Below are positions 16,225-24,236 of a stretch of DNA of 64,000 bases, piece by piece. The stretch comes from Candidatus Korarchaeota archaeon NZ13-K (GTDB lineage Archaea > Korarchaeota > Korarchaeia > Korarchaeales > Korarchaeaceae), in assembly GCA_003344655.1 (NCBI GenBank), contig MAIU01000001.1, forward strand, positions 1 to 64,000, given 5' to 3'. The translations under genes and the position numbers were made by a program. The notes below the pieces were generated by a model, which made no database searches, was not told the DNA's origin, and worked only from the letters and a program-made list of their open reading frames with translations. Within the stretch, counting starts at the first letter, position 1. The number at the start of each line of letters is the position of its first letter.

Positions 16225-17274
16225 TCATCGTAGCTCGAGCCCAACGCCCTCGACCTCCACCACGCTGGGTCTGTCAAGCCCCCCTTCAACGTTGTACCTC
16301 ACGGGAAGGAACCTCTCAACGAGCCAAATGTTGCTCTCAGCATGTCTAGTCAGCTTGGATATCCCTATCCTCGATGCGCCCCTGGCTATCGCTAGATAGG
16401 GTATTATCATATCACCCGTGTGATTATCGAAGGCCATCCCGGTCCTCAGTTCACCTAAGAGCTTCAAGGCAGCATTCCTTCCGACGACCTCACTCGGTTT
16501 ACCCCTCTCACCCAACTCGTCTGCCCCTACTCGCGGATTCGAGTCGCTCCAAAGGACGATGCCTGCTCCTGGTCCTAAGTGATCGTCCTCGTGCCATTCC
16601 TCCTCTATTTCAACTGAGAACCCCTCATTCCTCAAGACCTCCGCCGCTGACCTGGATATCCTCTCAACCACGCTTCTAGGGAGCTTCACGGCATGGCATC
16701 TTCCTGAGATCCGGCTGAAGTTCTCCCTCTCCACCTTCCGGATCGGGCTGAGCTCGGATGGCCTCACGCGGAGCTCGACGATCCCTCCTCCCTTGGGATA
16801 GTGACCCCTCCTCAGGATCCTCAGCTCGGCCCTTGCGCCTAGAAGCGAGAGGTTAGGAAGGAATACATTGCTCATGTAATCTATGGGTGGCGCCATGGGG
16901 ACGTCGGTACCTCCCTTTATCCTCAGGACGGTCTCCCCCTCGGAGGTCAGGCAGACGGGTAGCACCGCTTGGATTATCAAGCTAACGCTACCCGCGGTCC
17001 CTATGTCTATCTCAAACGAGCCACTGAGCTTTCTCCTGGGGATGAACCTCACCCTGAGGGATCCCACGCTATCACCTTCCACCAAGGCGTCCGTGAGCCT
17101 AGCAAGGGCCCTCACCGCGTTAAGGTGCTGCGGCCTCAGACCAGGATTTGATCTCTTAACCCTTATGTTGAACACCTCCACGGGTCTCATGGTCATGGAG
17201 GAAAGAGCGATGGCGTACCTCAGTAGTGATCCTCCTCCCTCACCGTAGCTCCCATCTATCCTAACGAACTCCAT
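16225..17274 (-). CDS. rtcA: RNA 3'-terminal phosphate cyclase
   Basis: 349 residues. RtcA converts RNA 3'-phosphate to a 2',3'-cyclic phosphate using ATP through an enzyme-AMP intermediate on His. Family patterns: IDGSYGEGGGSLLRYAIALSS at the N terminus, NPGLRPQHLNAVRAL, IGTAGSVSLIIQAVLP, and the nucleotidylated His in SKLTRHAESN (H311). Full length. The leaderless ATG is 27 bp from the centre of the TATA element shared with ogt. The downstream RPA and XPF genes overlap or abut it, a link between RNA/DNA 3'-end chemistry and DNA repair that is suggestive but unproven. Confidence 0.93.
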   Translation of the reverse strand: MEFVRIDGSYGEGGGSLLRYAIALSSMTMRPVEVFNIRVKRSNPGLRPQHLNAVRALARLTDALVEGDSVGSLRVRFIPRRKLSGSFEIDIGTAGSVSLIIQAVLPVCLTSEGETVLRIKGGTDVPMAPPIDYMSNVFLPNLSLLGARAELRILRRGHYPKGGGIVELRVRPSELSPIRKVERENFSRISGRCHAVKLPRSVVERISRSAAEVLRNEGFSVEIEEEWHEDDHLGPGAGIVLWSDSNPRVGADELGERGKPSEVVGRNAALKLLGELRTGMAFDNHTGDMIIPYLAIARGASRIGISKLTRHAESNIWLVERFLPVRYNVEGGLDRPSVVEVEGVGLELR

Positions 17275-17295
17275 ACACTAGAATATCCCTAGCTC

Positions 17296-17307
17296 CATTT
17301 ATATTAG
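17296..17307. promoter_or_regulatory. TATA element shared by rtcA (minus) and ogt (plus)
   Basis: CATTTATATTAG is almost the same on both strands (TAATATAAAT in reverse). Its centre at about 17301 is 27 bp from the rtcA ATG and 32 bp from the ogt GTG. The two start codons are only 59 bp apart, leaving room for just one promoter core. Confidence 0.65.
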
Positions 17308-17332
17308 TGCACCGCCCGCTCCCATTCCGGGT

Positions 17333-17929
17333 GTGGGCACGGAGGTAGTCTTCTGGATCTTTGAAGTGGGAGGGAAGTTCATAGGGATTGCCAAGAGGGG
17401 GGAGCTCCTTTACTGCAACACGATACCACTCGGGAGCGAAGGGGAGGCCGAGGAGGATCTCGCGAGCAACTGCAGGGGCGCCTGGGGTGCGCTCAGGATG
17501 GTGAGAGGGAGGATCGAGGATGAGGCATTGGCTAGGGAGATATACTCGCTCTACTCAGGCGAGCCCAGGAGTTCACTGAGGGTGAACTTCGCGATCCACC
17601 CGAACAAGAGGTTTCAGGATGCCCTCAAAATGATGTCACTAATCCCGAGGGGGGTGTTCACCACATATGGCGAGCTAGCGAGGGCGCTGAACACCTCCCC
17701 GAGGGTCATCGGGTCCTACGCTGCTAGGAATCCGTACCCTCTACTCATACCCTGCCACAGGATCGTCAGGGGGGACATGGGAGTGGGAGGCTACGGTTAC
17801 GGGACTGAGCTAAAAGCCAGGCTTCTGATGATGGAGGGTGTGGAGGTGGATCTGAAGAGTATGAGGGTGAACCCTGATAAGCTTATCAGAGCTGAGGGGC
17901 TAATCGCGCTTGGGAGGTGTGTGCATTGA
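17333..17929 (+). CDS. ogt: Methylated-DNA--protein-cysteine methyltransferase
   Basis: 198-residue suicide repair protein that transfers alkyl groups from O6-alkylguanine in DNA to its own cysteine. The C-terminal domain has the helix-turn-helix region IPRGVFTTYGELARALNTSPRVIGSYAARNP and the active site LIPCHRIV with Cys141, followed by GGYGYGTELKARLLMMEG. The N-terminal ribonuclease-like domain is divergent. The GTG start is leaderless relative to the shared TATA element. Its TGA overlaps the TTG start of crenactin (TTGA), so the two genes are probably cotranscribed. Confidence 0.93.
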   Translation: MGTEVVFWIFEVGGKFIGIAKRGELLYCNTIPLGSEGEAEEDLASNCRGAWGALRMVRGRIEDEALAREIYSLYSGEPRSSLRVNFAIHPNKRFQDALKMMSLIPRGVFTTYGELARALNTSPRVIGSYAARNPYPLLIPCHRIVRGDMGVGGYGYGTELKARLLMMEGVEVDLKSMRVNPDKLIRAEGLIALGRCVH

Positions 17930-19212
17930 TAGCCCAACCCAAACCGGTCTTCGCCTCCGACTTCGGAACTTCCTACTACAAGTTCGGTCCCTGGTGGCTG
18001 ATGAAGACGGGTCCGAACGTGGTTGAGAACAGGGGATACTTTCCCAAGATATCCAAGGTTTCGGCCGAGGTCAGGGGCATAACGGCCAAGGAGGTGGTGG
18101 TCGGCGAGGAAGTGGCGGAGTACTTGGAGTCTAGGGCTGATCTGGCGAGGCTCTACTATCCCATGAGGAATGGGATCATAGAGAGGAACGATCAAAGGGG
18201 ATGGAGGGTGGTGAAGGAGCTGGTGAGATATGGATTACTCAAGTATCATCCTGGGAGAACGGATACGACTGGGCTCCCATTCTCCGGATTCCTAGTGGTG
18301 GCGGCGCTCGCGGCGCAGGCCCCCACTTACATGTACGAGAGATTTTTCGAGATACACGAGGAGGTGAACTCGGAGGAGGGTGGAAATCTGGTGAGGGCCG
18401 TCACTATAATCCCCCAACCGCTGGCTGTGGCCATAGCCGAGAAGGCGGTGGCCTGCATGGTGGTTGAGGCGGGCCATGGGAACACTCAGATCACGCCGAT
18501 AAGCAGGGACGTGATAAGGGCGGCCCTGATACCGCTCAACAGGGGAGGAAGCGACTCCGATAGGATAACTGCTCAGATACTGAAGGACCTCGGGTATCCG
18601 GATCTGGCCAGGGAGGAGAAGTTCGTCAGGATGTTCAAGGAGATGGTCGGTCTCCTACCGCTGGACTTGGATAAGGCAATCTCCTGGGCGAAGGATCATC
18701 CGGGTGCGCTGCAGTCCACCTTCAGGATTCCCGGAACCACGGTGGAGGTGGAGATGGGTGATAAGGCATGGCAGAGGTTCCTGATAGGGGAGTTCTTCTT
18801 CAACCCGGCGCACGAGCTTTTCGAGAGCTATTACACGAGGGGTTTCGTATCGCCTAGGGACACGCTGGTCGGCGGTGAGGTCATCCCAGGGAATGTGACG
18901 CTGGCCGAGGCGATCAGGCTCTCGATATCGAAGGTACCGGTGGAGCTTCAGACGTCCATCGCTAAGAGGGTGATCCTCTCAGGAGGAGCCTTTAACTGGA
19001 GCGTCCCAAAGGGGCTGGAGGGGATTGCGGCAGATTCCCCGACTAAGTTGAAGCACATGCTGAGATCCGTGGGCCTCGACGTTGAGCCTAAGTTGGTGTC
19101 TGATCCTCAGTTCAGCGTTTGGAGGGGCTCCATAGTGTATGGGATGGCCGTGAGTGAGGAGATAGCGTGGGACTGGTCCAAAATGGAGGGCTGGTATCAC
19201 ATAGGCAGGTGA
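17926..19212 (+). CDS. Crenactin (archaeal actin homologue)
   Basis: 428-residue actin-fold ATPase. The actin signature loops are in order: phosphate-1 SDFGTSYYKFGP (about 11-22), phosphate-2 EAGHGNTQITPI (about 181-192), adenosine-binding ILSGGAFNWSVP (about 350-361), and a C-terminal FSVWRGSIVYG (about 396-406) matching actin's YSVWIGGSILAS. Length and these motifs match crenactin of Thermoproteales and Korarchaeota, which forms actin-like filaments. The TTG start has GGGAGGTG upstream and overlaps the ogt stop; an upstream in-frame GTG (17917) is less likely. No recognisable arcadin gene adjoins it; neighbours are ogt and a convergent DUF72 gene (16 bp overlap). Role in cell shape or division is inferred. 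Confidence 0.9.
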   Translation: MIAQPKPVFASDFGTSYYKFGPWWLMKTGPNVVENRGYFPKISKVSAEVRGITAKEVVVGEEVAEYLESRADLARLYYPMRNGIIERNDQRGWRVVKELVRYGLLKYHPGRTDTTGLPFSGFLVVAALAAQAPTYMYERFFEIHEEVNSEEGGNLVRAVTIIPQPLAVAIAEKAVACMVVEAGHGNTQITPISRDVIRAALIPLNRGGSDSDRITAQILKDLGYPDLAREEKFVRMFKEMVGLLPLDLDKAISWAKDHPGALQSTFRIPGTTVEVEMGDKAWQRFLIGEFFFNPAHELFESYYTRGFVSPRDTLVGGEVIPGNVTLAEAIRLSISKVPVELQTSIAKRVILSGGAFNWSVPKGLEGIAADSPTKLKHMLRSVGLDVEPKLVSDPQFSVWRGSIVYGMAVSEEIAWDWSKMEGWYHIGR

Positions 19213-19952
19213 TGCTCCAACATGTACTTGAAGGCCCTGGCGTTCTCGAGGCTGAAGTAGGAGTTGTTGAAGAGCACGTAATTACTCTCAGCGGCATTCC
19301 GTTTCACGATGTCCATCAGCCTCAGGAGCTCCTCCTCTGAATAATTGTGGCTGTAGATGATCCTTTTCCCCTTCCTTGACCCATGAAGCCTGTAGTACCT
19401 GAATCTCCCATAGACAGGAGATTCGTAGAGCGGATCCACCACGTGAGTGATGCCCAACTCCTCCAGTATCCTCCTGAACTCCTCCCTCCTGAGCCAGCTC
19501 TCATCCCTGATCTCCCACCCCACCATAAGGGCCCCCTCCTTTACGGATCTGAAGAACTCCAGGGAGTTCCTCACGTTCTCATCGCTGGCTTTGAATGAAG
19601 GTGGGCTCTGAAACACCACTAGGCTAGAGTTTAGCTCCCTTAAAATCTCCCTGAACTTTTCCCATGACTCTAGATTCTTTCCAGTGGGTTTAAGTGATCC
19701 ATACTCGCTGTCGGGAGGGACGCCGGACTTCCTCCATATCGCGCTCGATGGGCTATGCGTGAAGACCATCCAAGCCTTCACCGCGAACTCGAAGGAATCC
19801 CTTCCAACATCTCTCCTCCACCTCCTGACGGTCTCCACACTCGGCAGCTTGTAGAATGTATCCTGAACCTCCACCAGATCAAATATCTCAGCATATTTCC
19901 TCTTGGATATCTGGAAACCGCAGCAGCCGACCTTGAAGACGGAGCCTCCCAC
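19197..19952 (-). CDS. DUF72 (YecE-like) TIM-barrel protein
   Basis: 251 residues. Patterns of the DUF72 family: VGCCGFQ at the N terminus, EVQDTFYKLPSVETVRRWR, FEFAVKAWMVFTH, VVFQSPPSFK, VGWEIRDESWLR, YYRLHGS, and YVLFNNSYFSLENA. The biochemical function of the family is not established, although a TIM-barrel fold is known. The GTG at 19952 lies about 35 bp from GTTAATTTTTC (about 19981-19993), fitting a nearly leaderless mRNA; a longer frame upstream is low-complexity and crosses the promoter. It overlaps the crenactin 3' end by 16 bp. Confidence 0.82.
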   Translation of the reverse strand: MGGSVFKVGCCGFQISKRKYAEIFDLVEVQDTFYKLPSVETVRRWRRDVGRDSFEFAVKAWMVFTHSPSSAIWRKSGVPPDSEYGSLKPTGKNLESWEKFREILRELNSSLVVFQSPPSFKASDENVRNSLEFFRSVKEGALMVGWEIRDESWLRREEFRRILEELGITHVVDPLYESPVYGRFRYYRLHGSRKGKRIIYSHNYSEEELLRLMDIVKRNAAESNYVLFNNSYFSLENARAFKYMLEHHLPM

Positions 19953-20094
19953 CCGGGTCCCGGGATCAGCAGCTGGGCATGAAAAATTAACTTTTCCGTC
20001 GGATAGCTTACGCGGATCGGGTGAGCGTGCTGCAGCTCCACCTTGGGGCATTCACCCCCTCACCATTTTATCCTCACGCTGAAACGGGCTGGTG

Positions 20095-23825: not shown

Positions 23826-24236
23826 TTGGATGGGGACAGGGGGGTTGCTTTGAGCCCGGAGGAAGAGGGCTACGAGTGGGAACTGGAATTGCTCAGGGTT
23901 AGCTCCCTGCTCGACCTACTGAGGCTGGCGGCATCCTCCAACTCCGTCTCTGTGCTGGTGGAGTTCTGGAGCGACACCCTCAAGGGGAGGGTTATAGGGA
24001 CATTCGCCAACAACTACGGGATAACGAAGCCCGATGTTTTCTCATTCACCGTCTACGACGGGAAGGAAGAAGGTAACTTCCTAGTTTACAGGGCGGACGA
24101 GACCGGAGAGCGATATGAGTTCTTGGAGGGGTTGTCCTCAGATAAGATAACCTTTCCCGTGATAAAGCTCTTCAAGGAGCCCTATTGGTTCTCGGAGAGG
24201 TTGAGATCGAGCGGGATGGCGGATGACGCGGAATAA
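23826..24236 (+). CDS. Hypothetical protein in the TRAM/TrmB operon
   Basis: 136 residues; family not recognised. Acidic, no Cys, no membrane helix. The N-terminal half is helical (ELELLRVSSLLDLLRLAASS), the second half looks beta-rich with several Phe/Tyr (IGTFANNYGITKPDVFSFTVYDGKEEG). Start uncertain: TTG at 23826 or TTG at 23850. It follows the TrmB-like gene by 15 bp and overlaps the next small gene by 14 bp, so it belongs to the same operon. Confidence 0.6.
   Translation: MDGDRGVALSPEEEGYEWELELLRVSSLLDLLRLAASSNSVSVLVEFWSDTLKGRVIGTFANNYGITKPDVFSFTVYDGKEEGNFLVYRADETGERYEFLEGLSSDKITFPVIKLFKEPYWFSERLRSSGMADDAE

Follow-up and report, generated by a model that had tools for sequence, protein, structure and literature searches.

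Crenactin genes of Thermoproteales lie in the arcade, beside the genes of the arcadins. The locus described here raises the question of what has become of those partners where crenactin stands apart from them: whether they were lost, were replaced by other neighbours or were moved elsewhere in the genome. The window, meaning the whole stretch of DNA that was analysed, comprises 64,000 nucleotides of a Korarchaeum-like MAG that totals 1.37 Mb on 148 contigs. Its relevant features are as follows.

16225-17274, minus strand: RNA 3'-phosphate cyclase (RTC/RtcA)
17275-17332, no strand: divergent intergenic gap of 58 bases between the RtcA gene and ogt
17333-17929, plus strand: ogt, O6-methylguanine-DNA methyltransferase, with a PCHR active-site motif
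17913-17919, plus strand: ribosome-binding site of crenactin, GGAGGTG, within the final part of ogt
17926-19212, plus strand: crenactin (archaeal actin), 428 aa, TTG start
19197-20051, minus strand: DUF72 protein (PF01904), convergent with crenactin, the 3' ends overlapping by 16 bases
23826-24236, plus strand: small protein of an unnamed family without a Pfam match, with relatives at a distance of 1-3 genes from crenactin in arcade loci of the Thermofilum type

A phmmer search of the PDB with the 17926-19212 product returned Pyrobaculum calidifontis crenactin (PDB 4cj7/5ly3/5mw1) at 351 bits (E 5e-104), with window residues 6-424 aligned to residues 11-428 of the reference, and true actin/Arp chains scored merely 22-27 bits. 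The actin signature loops DFGTS, EAGHGNTQ and SGGAFNW are all present, in agreement with a preliminary description that had called the protein a crenactin on the basis of such loops. That description had also proposed a phylogeny, with a position beside MreB or ParM or outside crenactin speaking against the assignment. In our tree the protein stays within crenactin, grouping with other Korarchaeota inside the TACK crenactins and apart from yeast actin and Escherichia coli MreB, two outgroup sequences that form long branches. Crenactin was found in all phylum genomes tested but one, a 63% complete assembly, indicating that the gene is ancestral in Korarchaeota. Its presence in Korarchaeum has already been published (PMC4571572, PMC7613921). 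Judged from its sequence, the ORF product is a genuine crenactin whose gene has been inherited vertically in Korarchaeota, and by homology it would be expected to form F-actin-like double-helical ATP filaments. Since crenactin correlates with elongated cells (PMC7613921), these filaments may have a role in thin-rod cell shape.

The immediate surroundings of the gene agree with the preliminary description, which had crenactin following ogt with an overlapping start, facing a DUF72 gene and having no arcadin on either flank. Crenactin starts with a TTG at 17926 that overlaps the stop codon of ogt (TGA, 17927-17929), and a G-rich box comparable to the ribosome-binding site in the end of ogt lies 5' of the crenactin start in most Korarchaeum relatives. 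The promoter probably lies in the 58-base gap between RtcA and ogt, which would give one ogt-crenactin transcript. No member of the arcadin-1, -2 or -4 families was detected within 8 genes on either side of window crenactin, so that none of these three is directly adjacent, and no arcadin-3 lies next to crenactin.

Such surroundings might mean that the arcadins have been replaced and that crenactin works with its adjoining partners (ogt, DUF72 and RtcA), linking actin to DNA or RNA repair. We regard this as very unlikely. In 22 Korarchaeota loci ogt does lie directly upstream of crenactin and shares its strand, and RtcA, which has accompanied korarchaeal crenactin for longer than any other neighbour, is at most two genes away in three deep-branching loci. 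However, the deepest korarchaeal branches have no ogt beside crenactin, and the constant gene closer to it there is RtcA. The order of the surrounding block (aminoacyl-tRNA synthetase, ERCC4, OB-fold, RtcA, ogt, DUF72, CLP1) is largely kept within the family, and therefore the crenactin neighbourhood alone says little. The replacement of partners is further contradicted by arcadin-1 and arcadin-2, which are kept elsewhere in the genomes, as described below.

The small protein at 23826-24236 belongs to a family that occurs close to crenactin in Korarchaeum as well as in loci of the Thermofilum type. Its identification as arcadin-1 was rejected, because PF18653 marks a different gene and this family has no Pfam match. 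The idea that it is a constant new crenactin partner was weakened by its absence in Pyrobaculum and its presence in several crenactin-less genomes. In a Calditenuis genome, two adjoining copies of the family occur in one frame.

As a reference, the arcade gene order was recovered from the P. calidifontis and P. aerophilum genomes: arcadin-1 (PF18653), crenactin, arcadin-2 and the SMC-like arcadin-4. P. calidifontis arcadin-2 is a protein of 203 aa with the C-terminal end ENEWVKILRSKR. A member of this family adjoins crenactin in 40 non-korarchaeal TACK loci, typically ending in (D/E)NPWxxIL, and none was found beside crenactin in the korarchaeal loci compared. The groove motif also ends a 393-aa protein adjoining crenactin in Methanomethylicus (L049:11327-12508), with a similar tail in L051; an arCOG survey had recorded no arcadins in Methanomethylicia (PMC9723716).

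Arcadin-1 is present in the window's own genome, where a member (G000:C5:24893-25180) scored 31-32.6 bits with PF18653, over the curated cut-off of 25 bits. It is located on contig C5, and crenactin is on C1 of the same assembly. The Korarchaeum match is modest at 31 bits. Of the 29 phylum genomes, 16 have an arcadin-1 over the cut-off. In the deep-branching genome G028 (L276:2305-3026), RtcA, which accompanies crenactin in the other Korarchaeota, comes immediately after arcadin-1.

The arcadin-2 profile revealed full-length matches in two deep branches (E 2.5e-18 and 3.7e-14) and proteins with the C-terminal motif in most other korarchaeal genomes, and a Korarchaeum-type profile matched 22 of the 29 phylum genomes. 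The korarchaeal protein is diverged and about 255-370 aa long. From sequence and models, it appears in the relatives of the window's species to keep the features that mark arcadin-2, namely a nuclease-like N-domain, a coiled coil and the C-terminal crenactin-groove motif NPWxxIL. In the class Korarchaeia, nearly every locus that covers the two flanking genes places it immediately 3' of uS11 and immediately 5' of RpoD, on the same strand, giving the ribosomal/RNA-polymerase operon order uS13-uS4-uS11-arcadin-2-RpoD. In G028 it lies between uS19 and eS25, followed by uS13, and in G026 about 4 kb from RpoD. Near the G028 gene is a cyclophilin-like gene (L275:15775-16179) of a Pfam family that adjoins crenactin in Thermofilum-type loci.

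Arcadin-2 was not seen in the window's MAG because the segment that would carry it is absent from the assembly: secY, cbf5, S13, S4, S11 and RpoD are all missing, though found in the controls, and L13-S9-aIF5A are present. A loss of arcadin-2 from this genome was therefore rejected in favour of an assembly gap. Two congeners without a full arcadin-2 match show the same kind of gap. By comparison with congeners, the window's own species presumably has the gene.

Because the bodies of these proteins are very diverged, some of their likeness to arcadin-2 might stem from convergence on the groove motif. In the extreme case, the korarchaeal tail proteins would be unrelated adaptors that have converged on the crenactin-groove tail, true arcadin-2 having been lost. 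This has some appeal, as the sequences as a whole are very dissimilar, many of the profile matches are driven by the tail alone, and its occurrence on RHH and HTH proteins demonstrates that it can be attached to other domains. We nevertheless consider it unlikely. The N-domains of the korarchaeal protein and arcadin-2 were linked by hhalign (95.1%, E 3e-8, over only 57 columns), and both types share a predicted order of elements in this domain, followed by a coiled coil, a loose linker and a C-terminal helix. The modelled N-domain of P. calidifontis arcadin-2 resembles PD-(D/E)XK-like folds (2okf, 2inb, 2ph7), and the Korarchaeum model, of low confidence, gave weak fold matches, some of them likewise PD-(D/E)XK-like. 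Moreover, the full-length arcadin-2 of deep Korarchaeota is encoded within this ribosomal gene region or close to it. As for the tail, the motif occurred in none of 1,193 background ORFs. Among 14,140 frames in the loci analysed, many of which had been chosen for crenactin or arcadin-2, so that the scan is a specificity check and not a census, 99 distinct tails carried it; by inspection these look like arcadin-2-type or related RHH/HTH proteins.

Arcadin-4 has had another fate. In three deep-branching Korarchaeota, crenactin is faced by a convergent SMC-like gene that falls with arcadin-4 in the tree (100 SH-aLRT), whereas the SMC-like proteins of the window's class fall outside the arcadin-4 clade. 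Arcadin-4 was not found in this class, and the best match in the window genome belongs to another SMC-like clade. The class to which the window belongs has apparently lost it, and deeper branches have kept it beside crenactin.

The arcadin cluster is thus scattered rather than wholly replaced. We think it quite probable that a vertically inherited crenactin remains from an arcade that was dismantled, with arcadin-2 now in a ribosomal operon, arcadin-1 elsewhere and arcadin-4 apparently lost. Crenactin would be translated from the end of ogt as one half of a bicistronic pair, and arcadin-2, a putative monomer-sequestering regulator, would have been relocated to the ribosomal/RNA-polymerase operon. 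Crenactin filaments are disassembled when the arcadin-2 tail fills the groove used by the D-loop of the next subunit (PMC5173319). In Korarchaeota, the C-terminal helix with NPWxxIL may likewise push into the hydrophobic groove of crenactin and compete with the D-loop. Arcadin-2 dosage would then be set by the ribosomal operon, possibly tying actin depolymerisation to growth rate. The preliminary description had suggested different regulation or partners for actin in this lineage. Regulation probably does differ, given the ogt-crenactin bicistron and the place of arcadin-2 in a ribosomal operon. Different partners find no support, with arcadin-1 in the same genome, arcadin-2 in most other genomes of the family and only arcadin-4 appearing to be lost. 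The genome-wide search recommended there, made for arcadin-1, -2 and -4, located arcadin-1 on C5, met the missing segment in the case of arcadin-2 and found no member of the arcadin-4 clade.

The groove tail is also carried by small RHH-type proteins, three in G017 and one in G016, each with an RHH-type N-terminus and the groove motif.

L295:7600-8028: RHH-type tail protein
L296:2297-2737: RHH-type tail protein
L297:1175-1612: RHH-type tail protein
L298:7785-8237: RHH-type tail protein (G016)

Of these four proteins, three score over the cut-off for RHH_1. In G016 the RHH gene overlaps a gene for a phage-type integrase, and there, as in one G017 case, a radical-SAM gene is found a short distance upstream of it. 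An HTH-like protein with the same tail was observed in the deep korarchaeal genome G028 (L300:25-633). Three of the five RHH/HTH tails match best to arcadin-2 of the same genome or of a congener. Viral contigs gave no true match for the RHH protein, crenactin or the groove-tail DNA pattern. A tentative extension of these observations, which we hold to be possible but doubtful, is that in Korarchaeota several ligands with unlinked genes dock in the same crenactin groove (a chromosomal arcadin-2 produced along with the ribosomal proteins, and RHH proteins of ParR-like design, encoded on integrating elements and borrowing the actin of the host to move the DNA of these elements), with NPWxxIL as a general signature of TACK crenactin ligands.

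Where arcadins seem to be missing, one may conclude that archaeal lineages have different actin systems; in the present case two of the partners still exist and have changed position. The short tail motif suffices to find candidates, so that lineages in which no such ligands had been recorded, such as Methanomethylicia, can be given a set of possible crenactin ligands open to testing. With an actin sequesterer encoded in the uS11-RpoD operon, growth and actin turnover may be directly coupled. Should the RHH tail proteins bind crenactin, mobile DNA would be exploiting a chromosomal actin of its host, which to our knowledge would be new. No report of arcade dispersal in Korarchaeota was found in the open-access papers searched.

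Compared with known systems, window crenactin is 47% identical to that of P. calidifontis (PDB 4CJ7, 5LY3) across the whole length. The invariant active-site glutamine is Q164 in both, with identical numbering, V339/E340 occupy the same positions, and the long hydrophobic-plug region is likewise shared, residues 292-326 being free of gaps in the phmmer alignment. In the P. calidifontis protein, Q164 is catalytic and V339/E340 form a filament contact (PMC5173319). Unlike its P. calidifontis counterpart, the window gene lies outside an arcade cluster, is translated from the end of ogt and starts with TTG. The crenactin of the same-genus genome G010 (1,590,757 bp), which we take to be Candidatus Korarchaeum cryptofilum OPF8, is 86% identical and has the same gene neighbourhood, a difference of ordinary species divergence only. 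Against the Thermoproteales arcade, in which crenactin lies with arcadins 1-4, the korarchaeal lineage has homologues of arcadin-1 and arcadin-2 but unlinked to crenactin, with arcadin-2 in the uS11-RpoD operon and arcadin-4 linked only in deep-branching Korarchaeota. In plasmid segregation by ParM-ParR, ParR binds in the groove of ParM (PMC5173319), and the RHH-type tail proteins similarly combine an RHH DNA-binding domain with a C-terminal peptide that would be expected to fit into the groove of an actin, a ParR-like design that could let mobile DNA use host actin. In contrast to ParM-ParR, the korarchaeal RHH adaptor has no actin gene beside it, and its actin would be the chromosomal crenactin of the host.
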